A stretch of DNA of 64,000 bases from Aedoeadaptatus urinae (GTDB taxonomy: Bacteria > Bacillota > Clostridia > Tissierellales > Peptoniphilaceae), in the NCBI RefSeq assembly GCF_900155585.1, contig NZ_LT707416.1, forward strand, positions 209,142-273,141. Reading direction: 5' to 3'. The notes beneath the pieces were generated by a model that did not search any database, was not told where the DNA came from, and was given only the letters and a program-made list of their open reading frames with translations. Each line of letters starts with the position of its first letter. The first letter of the stretch is position 1. Below, one piece after another: positions 22,823-34,872 of the stretch. The position numbers were made by a program, and so were the translations under genes.

Positions 22823-23743
22823 ATGGCATTTATCGACCGCGTACCGGAAGAATTTCGCACCACCGGTCCCGTCGGCGTCCTGCAATTAAATATTACGGGC
22901 AAATGCAATTTGCGATGCGCTCACTGCCACGTCATGAAAAATTCCGAATTCGACGAAATGTCGAAGGAAACCATGGACAAATGCATGGAGGCATTGAAGA
23001 AGCACCGCTTCCATACGGTGGACATTACCGGCGGCGAGCCGACGACCCATCCCCTCCTCATTCCTTTTATCCGCGAGGTGAGCGAGTATACCGACGACAT
23101 TATCCTTCGGACCAATGCCGTGGCCATCGACAAAAATCCCGAGCTTATGGAGCTCTTGGATGAAAAGAATATCCACGTCGTCGTGTCCCTGCCCTGTTAC
23201 ACGGAAGAAAACGTGGACTCCCAACGAGGCGAAGGCACCTTTAAGCACGTGATCCCCAATTTGCGGAAGCTCAACGCCATGGGCTACGGCAGCAAGAAGG
23301 ACCTGTCCCTGGTGAACAATCCCCTGGGCGCCTATTTGCCCGGCCCTCAAGAGGGCTTAGAGGCCGATTACCGCAAGTATTTGGAAGAAGAGGGCGTGGA
23401 ATTTTCCGAGCTCTTCACCATTACCAATATGCCCATGGGCTATTTCGGCGACAAGCTGCGGGAGGAAGGCATTGAAGAGGAGTACATGAAGCTCTTGGAG
23501 GACAATTTCAATCCCGACACCGTGGAAAACCTCATGTGCCGCTTCCAAATTTCCGTGGACCCCAAGGGCCGCATCTACGACTGCGATTTCCATCAAGCGG
23601 AAAGAATCCCCGCCGCCACCTATAAGACCATCGACGAGGTGATCGAAGCCGACGAGCTGTCCCGCCCCATCGTGTGGAAGGAATACTGCTACGGCTGCAC
23701 GGCCGGAGCCGGAAGCAGCTGCGGCGGCGCATTGGCGGAATAA
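22823..23743 (+). CDS. ArsS-like radical SAM/Cys-rich protein (DUF3641 family)
   Basis: A 306-residue radical SAM enzyme. The iron-sulfur motif is CNLRCAHC (Cys28, Cys32, Cys35) and GGEPTTHP follows for SAM binding. The second half matches the DUF3641/ArsS pattern: VNNPLGAYLPGPQ, TITNMPMGYF, then GRIYDCDFHQ and the Cys-rich end CYGCTAGAGSSCGGALAE. ArsS forms arsenosugar precursors in other bacteria, but no arsenic genes are near, so the substrate here is open. Some relatives use selenocysteine; here the positions are cysteine codons. ATG 22823 follows AAGGAAGA. Confidence 0.82.
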   Translation: MAFIDRVPEEFRTTGPVGVLQLNITGKCNLRCAHCHVMKNSEFDEMSKETMDKCMEALKKHRFHTVDITGGEPTTHPLLIPFIREVSEYTDDIILRTNAVAIDKNPELMELLDEKNIHVVVSLPCYTEENVDSQRGEGTFKHVIPNLRKLNAMGYGSKKDLSLVNNPLGAYLPGPQEGLEADYRKYLEEEGVEFSELFTITNMPMGYFGDKLREEGIEEEYMKLLEDNFNPDTVENLMCRFQISVDPKGRIYDCDFHQAERIPAATYKTIDEVIEADELSRPIVWKEYCYGCTAGAGSSCGGALAE

Positions 23744-23752
23744 GAAAGTGAC

Positions 23753-23835
23753 GAGAGCGACCCCATAAAATCGGATTTAATCGAGTGAGCATTTCGCTTG
23801 CTCGATTTTTTTTACATACTATTCCTTCGCGGCAT
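23753..23835 (-). mobile_element. Remnant of an IS150-group element end
   Basis: This stretch is about 90 percent identical by eye to the reverse complement of the right end of the intact element at 54391-55946. It shares the CGACCCCATAAA end, the 12-bp hairpin and the following T-rich tail with TTTACAT. The match fades after about 23835, so only the terminal 80 or so bases of an old, oppositely oriented copy remain. Confidence 0.75.
23779..23813 (+). terminator. Terminator of the ArsS-like gene, derived from the IS end
   Basis: AATCGAGTGAGC (23779-23790) pairs over 12 bp (two wobble pairs) with GCTTGCTCGATT (23796-23807) around ATTTC, followed by eight Ts. The hairpin is part of the IS remnant. 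Confidence 0.85.
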
Positions 23836-23922
23836 TGCCTCGGGAGCAGGCCGATAATTCCGTTGTTGCGAGAAATCTATGCTATAATAAATCCGTAAAA
23901 AGTATGAAAAGGGGGAAGACTT

Positions 23923-25431
23923 TTGCTTAACAGCTTAGCGAACTATCTGGAAGAGAGTGCCCGTCGCTTTCCGGACAAATTGGCTTTGTCCGACGAAAAA
24001 CTGGAACTGACCTTTCGACAAATGCGAGAAGCCGCTCAAAAAGTCGCCTCGTATATATGCAGGGAATATGGCGCAAAAAATCGCCCCGTGGCCGTGGAGG
24101 TGGATCGGGCGAGCCAATCCGTCGTCCTTTTTCTGGGCGTCCTCTACAGCGGAAATTTCTATGTACCCATGGACAAGCGCATGCCGAAGGAGCGCATGGC
24201 GCAAATTTTAGACGACGTGGATCCCCTTCTCTGTCTGGGCATCAAAGAAAAAAATATCTTCAACGACTTTGCTTATCCGGCGAAGAGCTACGACGCCCTT
24301 ATGGAAGAAGAAATCGACGAGAGCGGGGTTGAAAGGGCCGTAAAGGGAACCATCGACATGGATCCCGCCTACATGATCTACACCTCCGGCTCCACCGGCC
24401 GCCCGAAAGGCGTCGTCATCAGCCATCGCATGGTCATGGATTTTGCGGATTTTCTTTCCTGCACCTTCTCCATTACCGGGGAAGACATTATCGCCAATCA
24501 GGCGCCCTTCTACTTCGATTGCTCGGTAAAGGGGATTTACCAAATGCTCAGAAACGGCGCTACTTTATATATTTTGCGGCCGTCTTATTTTATGTTCCCT
24601 ATTAAGGCCGTGGAATTTTTTAACGAAAAAAAAGTCACCACCCTTCTTTGGGCCACATCGGGGCTCAATATTATTTCCGGCTCCGGGGCATTGAGCAAGA
24701 TCAAGCCGACGACTTTAAAGCGGGTCTTCTTTTCCGGCGAAACCCTTTACGGAAAAAATTACCTGCCCTGGAAAGAAGCCTGCGCACCGGATGCCCGCTT
24801 CATCAATCTTTACGGCCCCACGGAAGTGACGGTGGACTGCTGCTACTACGAAATCCATCGCGAATTCAGCGCCGAAGAGGTGATTCCCATCGGCGGTGCC
24901 TGCCCGAATATGGAGGTTTTTCTCCTGGACGAGAAAGACGAGCCCGTCGCCGGGGAGGGACTCGGGGAAATTTGCGCCCGAGGAACGGGAATTGCCTACG
25001 GCTATTACAAGGATCCCGAGAAGACGGAAGCCGTCTTCGTTCAAAATCCCCGCCACGGAAATTACCGGGACATTATCTACCGAACCGGTGACCTGGCTCG
25101 CACCAACGAGCACGGGGAATTGATCTTCGTCTCCAGAAAGGATCAACAGATCAAGCATCAGGGCAATCGCATCGAGCTGGGAGAGTTGGAAGCGGCGGCC
25201 AATAAAATCGAGAGCGTGAGAGAATCCGTGGCCTTTTACGATTACGAGGCCAGGAGCATTATTCTCGCCTACAGCGGCGAGGAAGATGGCGCCCTTTCCC
25301 ATAAGCTGAAGGAGCAAGTGCCGAAATACATGTTGCCGGCCGAGATTTTATTTTATGAGAAATTCCCTTATAATAGAAACGGTAAAATCGACCGCACGAG
25401 GATAAAGGCGGATTACGATGAAAAAAATTGA
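23923..25431 (+). CDS. DltA-like amino acid adenylation enzyme
   Basis: A 502-residue stand-alone adenylation enzyme that activates a carboxylic substrate with ATP and loads it on a carrier protein. Motifs: TSGSTGRPKG (154-163), YGPTE (297-301), YRTGD (386-390), SRKDQQIKHQGNRIELGELE, and the catalytic lysine in NGKIDR (Lys488). DltA for D-alanine is the closest classic relative, but the neighbours differ from a standard dlt operon, so the substrate may be another amino or short acid. The start TTG 23923 has GGGGGAAG. It overlaps the GNAT gene by 14 bases. Confidence 0.82.
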   Translation: MLNSLANYLEESARRFPDKLALSDEKLELTFRQMREAAQKVASYICREYGAKNRPVAVEVDRASQSVVLFLGVLYSGNFYVPMDKRMPKERMAQILDDVDPLLCLGIKEKNIFNDFAYPAKSYDALMEEEIDESGVERAVKGTIDMDPAYMIYTSGSTGRPKGVVISHRMVMDFADFLSCTFSITGEDIIANQAPFYFDCSVKGIYQMLRNGATLYILRPSYFMFPIKAVEFFNEKKVTTLLWATSGLNIISGSGALSKIKPTTLKRVFFSGETLYGKNYLPWKEACAPDARFINLYGPTEVTVDCCYYEIHREFSAEEVIPIGGACPNMEVFLLDEKDEPVAGEGLGEICARGTGIAYGYYKDPEKTEAVFVQNPRHGNYRDIIYRTGDLARTNEHGELIFVSRKDQQIKHQGNRIELGELEAAANKIESVRESVAFYDYEARSIILAYSGEEDGALSHKLKEQVPKYMLPAEILFYEKFPYNRNGKIDRTRIKADYDEKN

Positions 25432-26203
25432 AACGATCGCGGAATTTAACGAGATCTTCAGGGCCAATTTGTCGAAAAAGGGCTTTTCCAATCTGGAGGG
25501 CCTGCTTTTCGATGCCGAAGGGCTGATCCGTCAGGGGACGCTTTTCTACGAGCCCGTGGACGGAGGCGTCTTCTTTTTTCAAGACGAGGGGGCTTATTTT
25601 CAAACCTACCACGCCTTGAAGGGCGACGTGACTTCCGCCATCTGCCCCCGTCGGGAGAAGCCCTGTATCTTGGATTTTATTTTTAAACCGGGGAAGGAAG
25701 GGGCCTTTCCCGCCCTTTTGGAAGAGGGCGGCTGGCGCCCCTATATGAAGAGGCGCTCCGCTACCATGGACGTGGGCGAGGCGGCGAGGGCCGGGGTCCT
25801 CGCCCGGGAAGAGGATGCGGAGAAAATTACGGAGCTTCAGTGGAACCACATCGACCCCTACACCGGCCACTGTCTGCCCGTAGATGAGATGGCGGAGGAA
25901 ATAAAAAACGAACGCGTCTTTGCATCTTATGACGGCGCACGGCTCCGCGGCTATCTCAGGTATTCGAGCCGCTCTCGCCACTTGATTTTGGAAAACATCG
26001 TCGTCTCCCCGGGCGCCAGAGGCGAGGGCGTGGGAAGAGAATTGGTCGAGATGCTTATGGCTGTGGCGAAAGAGAAGGGTTTTTCCGCCATACGCCTGTG
26101 GGTTCGGGAAGACAACGAGGCGGCCATTCGCCTCTACGGCGGCTTTCCCTTCCGCTTCGGCGACTATGAATGTGTGAATTATATTTTAGAGGAAATGAGG
26201 TAA
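25418..26203 (+). CDS. GNAT-family N-acetyltransferase inside the Dlt-like operon
   Basis: A 261-residue protein whose C-terminal half is a GNAT domain: ENIVVSPGARGEGVGRELVEMLM is the acetyl-CoA binding motif A (about residues 189-211), followed by SAIRLWVREDNEAAIRLYGGFPF. The N-terminal half is a second, more diverged domain, possibly another GNAT-like lobe. It overlaps the adenylation gene and precedes the carrier protein. Standard dlt operons lack such a gene; it could acylate the amino group of the activated substrate before transfer. That role is inference. Confidence 0.8.
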   Translation: MKKIETIAEFNEIFRANLSKKGFSNLEGLLFDAEGLIRQGTLFYEPVDGGVFFFQDEGAYFQTYHALKGDVTSAICPRREKPCILDFIFKPGKEGAFPALLEEGGWRPYMKRRSATMDVGEAARAGVLAREEDAEKITELQWNHIDPYTGHCLPVDEMAEEIKNERVFASYDGARLRGYLRYSSRSRHLILENIVVSPGARGEGVGRELVEMLMAVAKEKGFSAIRLWVREDNEAAIRLYGGFPFRFGDYECVNYILEEMR

Positions 26204-26205
26204 GG

Positions 26206-26439
26206 ATGGATACGAGAGAAAGGGTCATTGCCCTGATTCGTGAGATCAACGAGGACTTTGATCCGGAAGAAAATGTGGATTTAATCGAAGAGGAAATTTT
26301 AGATTCCTTCGACATGATTTCGTTTATTATCGAAGTGAAAGAGGAATTCGGCGTGACGATCGGAGTCGATGACATTGTTCCCGAAAACTTTGCCACCGTC
26401 GATCAAATCGCGGATCTTATCGAGCAACTGGACGAATGA
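26206..26439 (+). CDS. Acyl/D-alanyl carrier protein (DltC-like)
   Basis: A 77-residue acidic carrier protein starting at ATG 26206 behind GAGGTAAGG. The phosphopantetheine site is Ser34 in ILDSFDMISFII (DSF instead of the usual DSL, as in many DltC proteins). It would carry the unit activated by the adenylation enzyme to the MBOAT protein. The stop overlaps the MBOAT start by four bases. Confidence 0.9.
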   Translation: MDTRERVIALIREINEDFDPEENVDLIEEEILDSFDMISFIIEVKEEFGVTIGVDDIVPENFATVDQIADLIEQLDE

Positions 26440-27905
26440 TTTTATTTAAAGGCACATACATCGCCTTCGTAATTTGTGTAATACTTGCCTATTACACAAT
26501 TTTTCGGCGTGCTCAATGGACGCTTCTTCTGGCGGCGTCCCTTTTCTTTTACGTCTATTTTACGAAATCCTATTTTATTTTCTTCTCCATCATCAATATC
26601 TACCTGTTCTCCCTCCTGGTCCATAGAATCGAGAACAAGGGCTTGAAAAAGGCGGCGGTAACGGCCTGCCTCCTCTTTAACTTTTCCTTTTTATTTCTCA
26701 TCAAGTACACGCCCCTTCTTTCCAATCGCTTTAATCTTTTGATTCCCCTGGGCATTTCCTTTTACATGTTCCAGTCCATATCCTACATTATGGACCTCTA
26801 TTGGGGCAGGGTGGAAATCGAAAGGAACCCCTTTAAGCTGGCTCTGTTTATTTCCTACTTTCCCCAAGTCATTCAAGGGCCCATCGGCCGCTTCGACGCA
26901 CTTATGCCTCAGCTCTTGGAAAACAAGGCCTATGATTCGGACAATCTGCGCTACGGCTTCGAAACCATTTGTTGGGGCGCCTTTAAAAAGATTTTTATCG
27001 CCGACCACCTGGGCCTTCTGGTCAATACGGTCTTCGACTCCTACGGCTCCTATCCCGGCCTCTTTGTATTTCTGACGGTCTTTGCCTACAGCATACAGAT
27101 CTACGCGGACTTTTCCGGCGGCATCGACATTATTCGAGGGATTTCCCAAATCCTGGGCATCGACATGGCCGTGAACTTTCGCCGCCCCTTCTTTTCCCGC
27201 TCCCTGGCCGACTTTTGGCGTCGCTGGCATATTTCCCTGGGTACGTGGATGAAAGATTACGTCTTTTATCCCCTGAACCTGTCACGGCCCCTGGTCTTCG
27301 TCAACAAGAAGGCGAAGAAACACTTCGGACGGAAGCGGGGCAAATTAATTTCCATTTGCCTCTCCACCTATATCCTCTATTTCATCGTGGGGATATGGCA
27401 CGGCGCCGGCACGAATTACGTCCTTTACGGCCTGTGGAACGGCACGATTATTTCCTTCAGCCTGTATTTGGAAGGGACCTACAAGAAAACCCTGGCGAAG
27501 CTGGGCATCGACCCCAAGGCCCGGGTCTACACCCTCTTTCAAATTATTCGCACCAATCTTCTCGTGACCTTGGGCAGATACTTTTCCAGAGCATCGGGGG
27601 CTCTCGTGGCCCTGAAGATGTGGGCCCACACCTTTAAAAATTTCCATTTGGGCTCCGCGCCCCTGTATTTGCTCCACGAAATGGGCTACACGAATAACGA
27701 GCTGATCGTGCTTTTTATCAGCATCTTCTTGGTCTTTCTCGTGGACCTGGCCTTCGAGGGGGGCGTCAATCTATACAAGAGCTTCGACGAAGCGTCCACG
27801 CCGGTGCAACTCGGCGTCATCGGCGCCTTTGCCCTCGCCTTCGTCGTCTTCGTCGTCTATGCCGGGGGCTATGTGCCCACGGAATTTATCTATCGCCAGT
27901 ACTAG
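26436..27905 (+). CDS. MBOAT O-acyltransferase (DltB-like)
   Basis: A 489-residue polytopic membrane protein of the MBOAT family. The conserved motif FWRRWHISLGTWMKDYVFYP contains His265, and the catalytic histidine is His322 in GIWHGAGTNYVLYGLWNG. DltB/AlgI-like proteins take an acyl or aminoacyl group from a carrier or CoA inside and pass it across the membrane. It sits between the carrier protein and an extracellular SGNH protein, so it should pass the unit to that protein or directly to an envelope polymer. Confidence 0.92.
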   Translation: MILFKGTYIAFVICVILAYYTIFRRAQWTLLLAASLFFYVYFTKSYFIFFSIINIYLFSLLVHRIENKGLKKAAVTACLLFNFSFLFLIKYTPLLSNRFNLLIPLGISFYMFQSISYIMDLYWGRVEIERNPFKLALFISYFPQVIQGPIGRFDALMPQLLENKAYDSDNLRYGFETICWGAFKKIFIADHLGLLVNTVFDSYGSYPGLFVFLTVFAYSIQIYADFSGGIDIIRGISQILGIDMAVNFRRPFFSRSLADFWRRWHISLGTWMKDYVFYPLNLSRPLVFVNKKAKKHFGRKRGKLISICLSTYILYFIVGIWHGAGTNYVLYGLWNGTIISFSLYLEGTYKKTLAKLGIDPKARVYTLFQIIRTNLLVTLGRYFSRASGALVALKMWAHTFKNFHLGSAPLYLLHEMGYTNNELIVLFISIFLVFLVDLAFEGGVNLYKSFDEASTPVQLGVIGAFALAFVVFVVYAGGYVPTEFIYRQY

Positions 27906-27917
27906 AAAGGAACGGAT

Positions 27918-29750
27918 ATGACCACGAAAAAATTTTTTATAATGATCGTCTCCGTCCTCGTCCTCATCTTTGCCGCCATCGGCGCGGGCAATTACTTTAT
28001 CAATCCCTTCGGCCTGTTTAACGAGTCTCTCATGGATTGGGATTCCTATAATTTCACGCAAAATCCCCGGACGGCGAAAATTCATTACATCGACAAGAAT
28101 CACGATAAGTACAATGCCTACATCGTCGGCTCCTCCGGCTGCGGCAGCCTCGATCCCAAACAGCTGAGCAGCTACACGGGAAAGAGCTACTACAACAGCT
28201 TTTATTACGGCTCCGACCTTTTGGACTCCTATGAAACCGTGGATTACCTGATTCGAAATTACACCGTGGACGAAATTATGCTGGGCATTAATTACAACAC
28301 GGCGATCAATTTCGACATCGGGGAAGACCAGCTGAATCTGCGCATGCCGGCCAAGCTTTCCGGGAAAAGTCTCTTGGCCTTTTACAAAGACTATCTTTTC
28401 GCCGATCCGCGGTATTTCGTAAACAAGCTGAGGGACAAGAGGAAAGACACCTTCTTCACTCAAGACTTCGACGTCTTTCTCCCCGAAACCGGCAGCTACG
28501 ACAAGCGGCTCAGGGACACGGAAGGCATCGGCGATTTAAACGCCTATGTGGAGAAAGAGGACTATCGGGTTTTTCAGGACTACCCTCGGGAAGTGAAGCC
28601 CTTTGCAAAAATGAAGGAATTTAAAGAGACCATGGCGGCCATTAAAAAGCTTTGCGACGAGAACCATGTGAAGCTCACCGTGGTGGTGATCCCCATTTAC
28701 AAGGACGACTTCCCCAACTATCCCGCGAAGGATTTGGATCTTTTCTACAGAAGTTTGGCCGAGATCACGCCCTTCTGGGATTTTTCCAAATCGTCGATTT
28801 CCGCCGATCCCCGCTATTTTTACGACGCCACCCACTTCAGAAACAGCGTGGGCCGCATGATTCTGGATCGAATCTACGACAAGGGCGACGACTATATTCC
28901 GGAGGATTTCGGTCACTACGTGGATCGCAAGGGCGTCGAGGATTTTTTAGCCTCCTTCCGGCAATACGAGGTGGTTCGCAATGAAGCGAACTATACTAAA
29001 AAGCTTCCCGTCCTCATGCTCCACCACATCGGCGAAGGTGATTATGCCATTTCCGAGGACAAGCTGAAGGCCTATCTGACGGCGATTCGTGGGGCGGGCT
29101 ACCATACGGTGGGCTTGCAGGACCTGTATAACTACGTCTACAAGGGCGTGGATTTAGGGGACAATCCCATTCTCATCACCTTCGACGACGGCTATTTAAG
29201 CAATTACGACAAGGCCTTTCCCCTTTTGAAGGAAATGAATATGAAGGCGGTCATATACTGCGTCGGCTCTACCTTCGGATCCTCCACCTATAAGGACACG
29301 GGCGAGCCGATTATTCCCCATTTCGGCGAAAAAGAAGCGCGGGAGATGCAGGATTCCGGCCTCATCGACATACAAAGCCACAGCTTTGATATGCATCAAT
29401 CGGAAGAATTGGAAACAAAGAAGCCGGTGCGCATAGACATGGGGCAATTTCCCCACGAAACGGAAGAGGAGTATATGAAGGCCTTCGGCGACGATTTCAA
29501 GAAAGAGGATTTGCTGATCCGCGCAGTGACGGGGCAGCCCATCCGCGCCGTCGCCTATCCCCGCGGCACCTATTCCGATATGACTCAGGGCCTGTTGGGC
29601 CTATACGGCGTCTGCGCCACCTTTACCTCGGATACCGGGGTCAACACCCTGATCAAAGGGCTGCCCCAATCCCTTTACGGGCTGAAGCGCATCGAGGTGG
29701 AGGCCAATTTGACGCCGGAGGAACTTTTGCAAAAGATTCGCGGCGAATAA
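27918..29750 (+). CDS. SGNH-hydrolase/NodB deacetylase fusion protein (DltD-like position)
   Basis: A 610-residue membrane-anchored extracellular protein. An N-terminal helix (about 5-24) is followed by an SGNH/DltD-like domain with the nucleophile region IVGSSGCGS (Ser72 or Ser73) and the DATHF motif (Asp303, His306). The C-terminal half is a NodB polysaccharide deacetylase: LPVLMLHHIGEGD, metal-binding TFDDGY (421-426), SHSFDMH (His488, His493) and AYPRGTYSD. It could move the activated unit onto an envelope glycan and remove N-acetyl groups from the same glycan. Canonical DltD lacks the deacetylase domain. Confidence 0.85.
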   Translation: MTTKKFFIMIVSVLVLIFAAIGAGNYFINPFGLFNESLMDWDSYNFTQNPRTAKIHYIDKNHDKYNAYIVGSSGCGSLDPKQLSSYTGKSYYNSFYYGSDLLDSYETVDYLIRNYTVDEIMLGINYNTAINFDIGEDQLNLRMPAKLSGKSLLAFYKDYLFADPRYFVNKLRDKRKDTFFTQDFDVFLPETGSYDKRLRDTEGIGDLNAYVEKEDYRVFQDYPREVKPFAKMKEFKETMAAIKKLCDENHVKLTVVVIPIYKDDFPNYPAKDLDLFYRSLAEITPFWDFSKSSISADPRYFYDATHFRNSVGRMILDRIYDKGDDYIPEDFGHYVDRKGVEDFLASFRQYEVVRNEANYTKKLPVLMLHHIGEGDYAISEDKLKAYLTAIRGAGYHTVGLQDLYNYVYKGVDLGDNPILITFDDGYLSNYDKAFPLLKEMNMKAVIYCVGSTFGSSTYKDTGEPIIPHFGEKEAREMQDSGLIDIQSHSFDMHQSEELETKKPVRIDMGQFPHETEEEYMKAFGDDFKKEDLLIRAVTGQPIRAVAYPRGTYSDMTQGLLGLYGVCATFTSDTGVNTLIKGLPQSLYGLKRIEVEANLTPEELLQKIRGE

Positions 29751-29801: not shown

Positions 29802-30332
29802 TTATAAGCTTTCCTCCAGGCGACGTATGGCTTCCTTCACATCGGCCTCTTCCATGGCCTCGCCCTTCAGGCGAAGGTCCTTCGCAAAAGCCAATGCCTC
29901 GGCGCGGGCGTCGGTGGGATCGGTCTTTTGCTTTTCCATGGATTCCTTGGCCACGGCGAGCATTTTCGACCAGGCCTGCACGATGGCATTTTCCCGGCGA
30001 ATGTGCTTAATAAGCCGGGCAAAGGTCCAGTCTTTGTTGGTGTCCGTCAGGGCCGCCTTGTGAGGGAACACTTCCCCCATGTCCCGAAGGGCCATAAGAA
30101 TCTTTTGCAGCTCGTGGGAGTGCAGATCCACAAAGACCAACAGCTCTTCATCAGGCGCATCCTCCGCGCCGCCGAGCTTTTCGTAGCCTTCCAGGCCCGC
30201 AAAATAGCCCACGTATTCGCCGACCTCATCCCGTGCCACTTCCCGCAAGGCGATGTCCTGTGCCCTTGCCGCTTCAATCAAACGAGCTTTTCGCTCCTCG
30301 CCCTTAATGCCGTAGTATATAATCAGACTCAT
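29802..30332 (-). CDS. DUF3783-like hypothetical protein
   Basis: A 176-residue soluble protein. I start at ATG 30332 (MSLIIYYGIKGEERKARL) behind GGATGAGGGC, not at the longer frame. The middle part, PHKAALTDTNKDWTFARLIKHIRRE, has the pattern I associate with DUF3783. The C-terminal third is helical and charged. It stands alone on the minus strand, ending at a bidirectional terminator. Function unknown. Confidence 0.65.
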   Translation of the reverse strand: MSLIIYYGIKGEERKARLIEAARAQDIALREVARDEVGEYVGYFAGLEGYEKLGGAEDAPDEELLVFVDLHSHELQKILMALRDMGEVFPHKAALTDTNKDWTFARLIKHIRRENAIVQAWSKMLAVAKESMEKQKTDPTDARAEALAFAKDLRLKGEAMEEADVKEAIRRLEESL

Positions 30333-30429
30333 GCCCTCATCCTTTCCGAATTTACCATCGCGCAATCGATGGTGCCCGTCCTATCGCGCGCTGCGATGTT
30401 CGGATGATAGATACCCGGGGAAAAAGTAT

Positions 30430-33969: not shown

Positions 33970-34872
33970 ATGAAATGTCGTTATTGCGGTTATGAAAATG
34001 AGCCCGGTGTAAAATTTTGTGCGTCCTGCTCAACGCCCATGGTCTATCCCCTGGGCTACAAGCCCGAGGACGAGGCAACCGTTGAAAAGGCGGAGCCCGT
34101 GAAGGAAGCGCCGAAGGCCGAAGAAAAACCCGTGAAGGAAGTCGCTGAGGAAAAATCGGAAGCGAAGCCTGTAGAGAAAGTTGCCGAAGAAAAGCCGGCA
34201 GCACCGGAAGAAAAGGCGCCGGCTCGCGGGGAAGCGCCGAAAGAAAAAGAAGCGCCGGCTGAAAAACCGATCGAGGTCCCGGAAAAGGTCGAGGCCGCAG
34301 ATGCCTATAAGGAATCGAAGCCTGTAGAGAAAGTTGCCGAAGAAAAGCCGGCAGCACCGGAAGAAAAGGCGCCGGCTCGCGGGGAAGCGCCGAAAGAAAA
34401 AGAAGCGCCGGCTGAAAAACCGATCGAGGTCCCGGAAAAGGTCGAGGCCGCAGATGCTTATAAGGAATCGAAGCCCGTGGACAAGCGCAAGAAACAGGCG
34501 CAAAAGCGGAAGAAAAAGGCGGAAAAGAAACCGGAAAAGGACGCAAGGGTTAGCGCCGAGGAAAAACGCCTGGAGCATCAAAGCCACAGCGCTAAGCCGG
34601 CGCCGAAAAAGGAAGCCCCGGAAAAGAAAAAACCGGAAGAAAAACCGGCTCCCGTAAAAGAAGCGCCGAAAAAAGAAGCCGCACCGGAAAAGAAAGCACC
34701 GGAAGGGTTGAAGGAAAAAGCAGTCGCTCCCGATAAAAAGGAAGCACCGGCCAAGGCACCGGAAAAGAAACCGGAAAGAAAGCCCGAGCCCAAGAAAGGC
34801 CGCATCAGCCCGGTCCTCGTGGCCATCGTCCTTTTGATTCTGCTCTTTATCATCTATAAAGCCGTGAAATGA
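33970..34872 (+). CDS. Zinc-ribbon protein with Lys/Glu/Pro/Ala repeats and a C-terminal membrane helix
   Basis: A 300-residue protein. The N-terminus is a zinc ribbon CRYCGYENEPGVKFCASC (Cys3, Cys6, Cys17, Cys20). About 240 residues of low-complexity KPE/EAP sequence follow and include a nearly exact 51-residue tandem duplication (DNA 34163-34468). It ends in one membrane helix (SPVLVAIVLLILLFIIY). The layout suggests a tail-anchored protein with a long extended spacer. The stop overlaps the AlkD-like gene by four bases. Function unknown. Confidence 0.8.
   Translation: MKCRYCGYENEPGVKFCASCSTPMVYPLGYKPEDEATVEKAEPVKEAPKAEEKPVKEVAEEKSEAKPVEKVAEEKPAAPEEKAPARGEAPKEKEAPAEKPIEVPEKVEAADAYKESKPVEKVAEEKPAAPEEKAPARGEAPKEKEAPAEKPIEVPEKVEAADAYKESKPVDKRKKQAQKRKKKAEKKPEKDARVSAEEKRLEHQSHSAKPAPKKEAPEKKKPEEKPAPVKEAPKKEAAPEKKAPEGLKEKAVAPDKKEAPAKAPEKKPERKPEPKKGRISPVLVAIVLLILLFIIYKAVK
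34163..34468 (+). repeat. 153-bp tandem duplication inside the zinc-ribbon gene
   Basis: The unit 34163-34315 is repeated immediately at 34316-34468 with one visible difference (C to T in GCCTATAAG). It keeps frame (51 codons). Such a fresh repeat can change length by slippage or recombination. Confidence 0.92.

Follow-up and report, generated by a model that had tools for sequence, protein, structure and literature searches.

The stretch analysed here, a window of 64,000 nt from Aedoeadaptatus urinae (a member of the Peptoniphilaceae whose source genome comprises 1.82 Mb in 4 contigs), harbors at positions 23923-29750 five plus-strand genes encoding an adenylation enzyme, a GNAT protein, a carrier protein, an MBOAT protein and a fusion of an SGNH domain with a NodB deacetylase, as assigned from the map of open reading frames (ORFs), Pfam matches and predicted folds. 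The five genes form one operon: the adenylation and GNAT genes overlap by 14 nt, 2 nt separate the GNAT stop from the carrier gene, the carrier and MBOAT genes overlap by 4 nt (ATGA) and a gap of 12 nt precedes the SGNH-NodB gene. An earlier note, made from the letters of this DNA, had named the same five genes, their tight packing and a GNAT gene that overlaps the adenylation gene and precedes the carrier, all of which is borne out by the Pfam matches, the predicted fold and the coordinates (GNAT at 25418-26203, then the carrier at 26206-26439). It had also proposed a Dlt-like logic (activation, loading of a carrier, crossing of the membrane through the MBOAT protein and transfer by the extracellular SGNH protein), with which the gene identities and motifs are in accord.

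The five-gene set is not a chance arrangement, because 14/14 family genomes and 60 of 80 loci of a wider scan hold the same order. In the family survey (130 genomes, a GNAT homologue being counted above 110 bits and the next best match lying at 61.7 bits), a full-length GNAT homologue was found in 14 genomes of 7 genera, including three of the eight genomes of the genus Aedoeadaptatus, and the five-gene order is the same in every one of the 14 (13/13 of the other neighbourhoods fetched). Among 391 genomes of the class, the SGNH-NodB fusion was found in nine outside the family, where it lies with the same five genes in four cases, with MBOAT, carrier and FkbH genes in three, at a contig end in one and alone in one. 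The wide scan, with the SGNH half as query and one genome per GTDB species, gave 132 relatives (Anaerosphaera, Peptoniphilus, Ezakiella, Aedoeadaptatus, Ruminiclostridium, Evtepia, Agathobaculum and many Oscillospiraceae), 80 of which were examined. Genes were counted on the plus strand only, from 7.5 kb upstream to 5 kb downstream, at more than 25 bits for the carrier and GNAT and more than 100 bits for the others; 60 loci hold all five in order, six are without GNAT, four carry FkbH (three complete, one cut) and 10 are partial, mostly cut by contig ends. When at least 6.5 kb of upstream sequence is in view (57 loci), 50 hold all five genes, three are without GNAT and two have FkbH; of the remaining two, one has a GNAT ORF running into carrier-like sequence, a separate carrier ORF not being found, and one is without a loader. 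The order that the earlier note had proposed to look for in other genomes is thus present at these frequencies (14/14 and 60/80), and so are the GNAT and the NodB fusion as lasting parts of the operon. The flanking genes, unlike the five, are common mainly within one genus. No publication describing this gene set was found in the open-licence PMC literature (preprints not covered), and the operon is a real and widespread variant among the Dlt/Pat systems of transmembrane acylation, apparently with no description in print. Distance matrices of the five proteins also correlate (r 0.74-0.87, 58 loci), for which shared ancestry alone suffices, and nothing is rested on it here.

The first gene (23923..25431, plus strand, TTG start) encodes a stand-alone adenylation enzyme of 502 aa (Pfam AMP-binding, 1.4e-60) that scores just over the cut-off of the NCBIfam general amino-acid adenylation model (323.7 vs 317.4 bits) and far below those of the DltA models (274.5 vs 476 and 272.9 vs 559.85 bits). 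Its own pocket, read by alignment at PheA positions 235-517, is DCKLFSLVDK, and the pattern D[CAG]K[LT]x[SA]L[VC]DK is found in 14/14 members of the family. In 79 pocket rows, which stand for 72 distinct loci (seven loci are in twice) and which include only adenylation pieces longer than 430 aa (obtained from 65 of the 80 wide-scan loci), D235 is kept in 79, position 239 is lysine in 77 and arginine in two, L322 is kept in 74, and position 331 is aspartate in 73 and asparagine in six. The corresponding residues of a true DltA from this bacterial family are DLMVLCTVCK, in agreement with the D-alanine (D-Ala) contacts D197, L198, C269 and V301 given in the excerpted text of PMC11253843. Judged by these residues, the operon pocket is fairly firmly one for something other than D-Ala, and the activation of D-Ala only, which the earlier note had put forward as contrary to its proposal, is answered in the negative at the level of the pocket. 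The lysine at 239, where every row has it or arginine, tentatively suggests an acidic, glutamate-like (Glu-like) substrate; in the literature, a mutation that shifted a surfactin synthetase domain from Glu toward Gln was at K239 (cited in PMC11355689), and DAQDLGVVDK is given for Glu/Gln (PMC12283262).

The carrier gene (26206..26439, plus strand) encodes an acyl/aminoacyl carrier protein of 77 aa (Pfam PP-binding, 1.2e-5) whose phosphopantetheine serine, in ILDSFD, is kept in 74/74 rows (Ser46 of the long ORF). The mechanically called ORF would place the start at 26170, within the GNAT gene; this is corrected here to 26206, most likely the true start because it follows the GNAT stop by 2 nt and is preceded by a purine-rich stretch, and because the carrier ORFs of 7 of 13 relatives begin there, the others having short extensions beyond the equivalent point. 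The DltC models give 39.7 vs 68 and 26.7 vs 52.35 bits, below their cut-offs. One phosphopantetheinyl transferase match was obtained in the source genome. In one genus, a phosphopantetheinyl-transferase-like gene directly follows the operon at 3/3 loci (L033:1666-2334, L065:10161-10811 and L066:11235-11915).

The MBOAT protein (26436..27905, plus strand, 489 aa; Pfam MBOAT, 1.5e-13), the one MBOAT match of the source genome, falls below the DltB cut-off (160.1 vs 375 bits) and carries His322 in IWHG and a C-terminal FIYRQY with Tyr486, the two residues being kept in 68/75 and 74/75 rows respectively. The tail follows FIY[RK]xY in 14/14 family members, and the 60 five-gene loci of the wide scan show FIYxx[FY] in 54 cases and FIYGRI in five, the motif being absent in one. 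The residue after the shuttle tyrosine is never phenylalanine in the 59 motif-bearing five-gene loci and is phenylalanine both in the FkbH form of the operon (3/3 complete loci) and in 12 further MBOAT loci from the family. These 12, which were hand-picked and have a weak SGNH match among the neighbours in only three cases, are all without loader, GNAT and carrier (12/12) and have tails of the form F[IL]YF[QR][FY]. A tyrosine in a C-terminal hexapeptide is what PatA auto-acetylates, according to an excerpt of PMC12148441. There is no room in the operon for a DltX gene, given that its junctions are overlaps or spacers of 2 and 12 nt; the motif is found instead at the MBOAT C-terminus. In a true dlt locus of the same family, taken as a control, dltA, dltC and dltB are followed by a 43-aa ORF ending in FIYSNF and then by a gene in the place of dltD; a second true dlt locus has a 53-aa ORF ending in FVYNQF beside dltB, and the DltB proteins of both loci are without such a tail. 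The earlier note had set the GNAT and the NodB fusion apart from dlt operons; it had missed a third difference, the shuttle motif on an MBOAT protein without DltX, and also the sister systems that lack the GNAT or use FkbH.

The last gene (27918-29750, plus strand) encodes the SGNH-NodB fusion of 610 aa. Its membrane-anchored SGNH domain (about residues 1-340, 27918..28937, plus strand) gave no match to Pfam at E 0.001 and is called from its predicted fold and the triad Ser73/Asp303/His306, which is kept in 81/81 rows; of 18 Foldseek matches at E <0.001, five fall on this half and all five are DltD chains. The NodB/CE4 N-deacetylase domain (about residues 358-610, 28989..29747, plus strand; Pfam Polysacc_deac_1, 2.6e-18) is PgaB/IcaB/PplD-like and has the NodB fold with the metal-binding Asp-His-His; Asp423, Asp424, His488 and His493 are kept in 80, 79, 79 and 79 of 81 rows. 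It scores below the NCBIfam cut-offs for PgaB (113.6 vs 321.9 bits) and IcaB (37.4 vs 248.35 bits), and unlike PgaB, IcaB and PplD it sits behind an SGNH domain in one protein. Poly-N-acetylglucosamine (PNAG) is not favoured as acceptor, PgaC/IcaA over the cut-off being absent in the source genome (22.8 vs 422.3 bits).

The GNAT gene (25418..26203, plus strand) encodes a tandem-GNAT-fold protein of 261 aa (Pfam Acetyltransf_1, 8.6e-16) with R201-G-x-G and Tyr240 in its C-terminal half, and the coenzyme A (CoA)-binding loop is intact (R201 in 61/63 and G204 in 60/63 rows). A protein search with the single sequence gave only four near-identical proteins and an alignment search gave 26, the last six of which (38-52 bits, one alone with a source name, diamine N-acetyltransferase) are taken for general GNATs. 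Among its fold matches are mycothiol synthase MshD, an enzyme that acetylates the amine of a cysteinyl group, aminoacyl-tRNA-dependent GNAT-fold synthases and MprF-type enzymes. Because its place between loader and carrier is fixed, its CoA loop intact and its fold MshD-like, we infer that it is an N-acyltransferase of the carrier-bound amino acid.

Some sister operons are without GNAT and others are loaded by FkbH, from which it is clear that the loading module is exchanged around a constant set of carrier, MBOAT and SGNH-NodB. The six GNAT-less operons (L196, L202, L211, L212, L213 and L214) keep all the other genes and share an Asn331 pocket, a glutamine in place of the MBOAT His322 and a YVYEN/S tail. 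Position 331 is aspartate in 59/59 scored GNAT-bearing loci and asparagine in 6/6 GNAT-less ones, and this linkage of GNAT presence with the pocket residue and the MBOAT tail is what one would predict for a GNAT that alters the cargo. In the tree of adenylation enzymes, the 65 rows with a GNAT (support 86/96) stand apart from the six without (98/95), the direction of GNAT gain or loss not being fixed by the sole outgroup, one long-branched DltA. The FkbH operons (L122, L123 and L127 in the class scan; L180, L199, L201 and L207 in the wide scan) consist of SGNH-NodB, MBOAT (where in view), carrier and FkbH, without adenylation enzyme or GNAT; their order is MBOAT, SGNH-NodB, carrier, FkbH, the MBOAT tail is FLYFQF or FLYFNF, and TIGR01686 (FkbH) is over its cut-off in 3/3 tested. 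FkbH-like enzymes make glyceryl-ACP (ACP, acyl carrier protein), as described in part of PMC7489565, and FkbH would load a glyceryl group here, for a predicted glyceryl decoration of an envelope glycan. They thus resemble the known FkbH and carrier glyceryl-ACP modules, here combined with a related MBOAT and the SGNH-NodB of the five-gene operon. The latter differs from such modules by its adenylation enzyme, its GNAT and its gene order.

Compared with known systems, the operon shares with Dlt (DltA, DltC, DltB, DltX and DltD) a stand-alone amino-acid adenylation enzyme, a carrier, an MBOAT protein, an SGNH-fold extracellular protein and an FxYxx[FY] shuttle tyrosine; it differs in a pocket without the D-Ala residues, a shuttle motif on its own MBOAT with no DltX, an added GNAT and an SGNH protein fused to a NodB deacetylase, the DltA, DltC and DltB models all being below cut-off. 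The AlmE system, which handles glycine, is not known to have an MBOAT/SGNH fusion. AlmE of Vibrio, which activates glycine for lipid A, is similar in being a DltA-like adenylation enzyme that serves an envelope molecule (PMC11253843, in part). With PatA/PatB, AlgI/AlgX, CcsH/CcsI and PatA1/PatB1 the operon has in common an MBOAT protein whose C-terminus bears the hexapeptide shuttle, and an SGNH partner, as these pairs are presented in portions of PMC12148441, PMC7710045 and PMC9487903. Non-Dlt MBOAT/SGNH pathways are said, in the excerpt of PMC12148441, to use acyl-CoA without a carrier; unlike them, this operon includes loader and carrier genes (14/14 in the family), so that a Dlt-type carrier would feed a PatA-type MBOAT.

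We lean toward a Dlt-like envelope pathway in which an amino acid other than D-Ala, likely acidic (Glu), is loaded on the carrier, likely N-acylated by the GNAT and moved by the MBOAT and SGNH proteins to a surface glycan. By analogy with DltC, the carrier serine would be primed by the single phosphopantetheinyl transferase detected in the genome; the adenylation enzyme would then activate and load the amino acid, the substrate being predicted from pocket residues only, and before export the GNAT would acylate the amino acid on the carrier at its free alpha-amino group, in line with a suggestion of the earlier note. If the chemistry follows that of PatA and DltX, the MBOAT protein would carry the acyl group across the membrane to its own Tyr486 (FIYRQY), with no need of DltX, and Ser73 of the SGNH domain would take it and pass it to the glycan. 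The fused NodB domain may strip N-acetyl groups from the same polymer, by which de-acetylation would be coupled to aminoacylation in one enzyme; from the motifs and folds observed we infer this coupling, the acceptor glycan and the linkage. A further proposal, which we regard as unlikely, is an acyl swap, in which SGNH-NodB would replace the N-acetyls of N-acetylglucosamine (GlcNAc) in an envelope polymer by the carrier-built N-acyl-amino-acid group (likely N-acyl-glutamyl) exported on the MBOAT tyrosine tail.

Several observations weigh against the pathway that we favour. The pocket code was read by alignment on a PheA numbering that we assume to be the right one. No Glu code identical to DCKLFSLVDK was among the published codes compared, as far as these were excerpted, and K239 also occurs in the homoserine codes DLKNVGSDVK and DLKNLGTDVK (PMC12283262, in part). 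Conservation is lower in the GNAT than in the other four proteins (mean identity 0.30 vs 0.48-0.50); Glu192 was considered as the catalytic base of the GNAT and rejected, its column not being conserved (E in 6/63), and no base could be named. The likeness to the MshD fold shows no function, aminoacyl-tRNA-dependent GNAT folds matching too. By Z score, the SGNH half is no less close to plain SGNH esterases (12-13) than to DltD (10.7-11.3) or PatB (10.9-11.2), and for the NodB half, BA0330, a NodB-like protein with a nearly equal Z, is reported inactive (PMC4505593). The lone SGNH-NodB fusion (L124:9365-11209, in genome G492) has no adjoining MBOAT, carrier, GNAT or full adenylation gene, and at locus L194 carrier, MBOAT and SGNH-NodB are present with no loader in view. 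Finally, clustering of the flanking proteins gave nothing common to many genera and no glycan synthesis gene fixed beside the operon.

The rival explanations differ mainly in the role given to the added parts. If the GNAT served the same pathway in another way, by adding a second residue (from the carrier or from aminoacyl-tRNA), by editing wrong thioesters or by re-acetylating a cytosolic sugar, the aminoacyl-tRNA-dependent synthases and MprF-type enzymes among its fold matches would find an explanation, and so would the six GNAT-less sisters, which keep the other genes and imply that the GNAT is dispensable for transfer as such; we find this doubtful, given the intact CoA-binding loop and the way in which GNAT presence tracks pocket residue 331 and the MBOAT tail. 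An ordinary dlt variant, in which D-Ala would be activated, teichoic acid D-alanylated and the GNAT and NodB would be bystanders, gains from the best named matches, DltA, DltC and DltB among them, and from one LtaS-size sulfatase-family protein (615 aa) in the source genome. It appears improbable, however, since the DltA, DltC and DltB scores are far below curated cut-offs, the D-Ala contacts are replaced, and a separate DltX is absent whereas the true dlt operons of the family have one; a standard dlt operon with D-Ala was rejected, at the level of sequence, on pocket, cut-offs and lack of DltX. Its bystander part also sits badly with the retention of GNAT and NodB in all 14 operon genomes. 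Of the 130 family genomes, 11 have a true DltB above the cut-off, none of them among the 14, a weak point, as about one shared genome would be expected by chance. It is likewise very unlikely that the SGNH half is a hydrolase (esterase) by which decorations would be trimmed or turned over, or the cargo released as a small molecule: the SGNH domain is the fixed partner of a shuttle-motif MBOAT, and its Foldseek matches at E <0.001 are with DltD chains only.

At the borders of the operon, a terminator-like hairpin (23779..23807, plus strand, from a consensus scan) lies between the operon and the upstream gene, and is weak taken alone, the scan having given 16 sites in the region vs 9.1 expected. 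An extended -10-like element, TGCTATAAT (23880..23888, plus strand, found by script search), is a candidate operon promoter; a two-hexamer promoter scan listed no promoter before 23923, and this element is absent from its list. Just upstream, at 22823-23743 of the window, is a gene for a radical SAM protein of the ArsS (arsenosugar-type) family (355.9 vs a cut-off of 300 bits). The next gene downstream is convergent and encodes a DUF3783 protein (29802-30365); a similar and also convergent neighbour (L073:4938-5468) is found in G002, another genome of the genus, and hints at an old residence of the operon and its loss in other species. Farther on, at 33970-34872, a 300-aa protein begins with a zinc-ribbon-like segment, contains long direct repeats rich in Ala, Lys, Glu and Pro, and has a hydrophobic stretch at its C-terminus.

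The operon fits neither of the two known boxes, having a carrier and loader like Dlt and yet a PatA-type built-in shuttle. Three natural loading modules (adenylation enzyme with GNAT, adenylation enzyme alone, and FkbH) are combined with one export module, which makes the range of groups accepted by MBOAT and SGNH directly testable. If the acyl swap were true, the operon with its FkbH and GNAT-less sisters would represent a third class of transmembrane acylation, in which a carrier feeds an MBOAT that has its own shuttle and the loading modules are interchangeable, unnoticed in gut Clostridia. As the operon is widespread in Peptoniphilaceae and Oscillospiraceae of the gut and body sites, a hitherto unknown decoration of the envelope with amino acids may be common in these bacteria.

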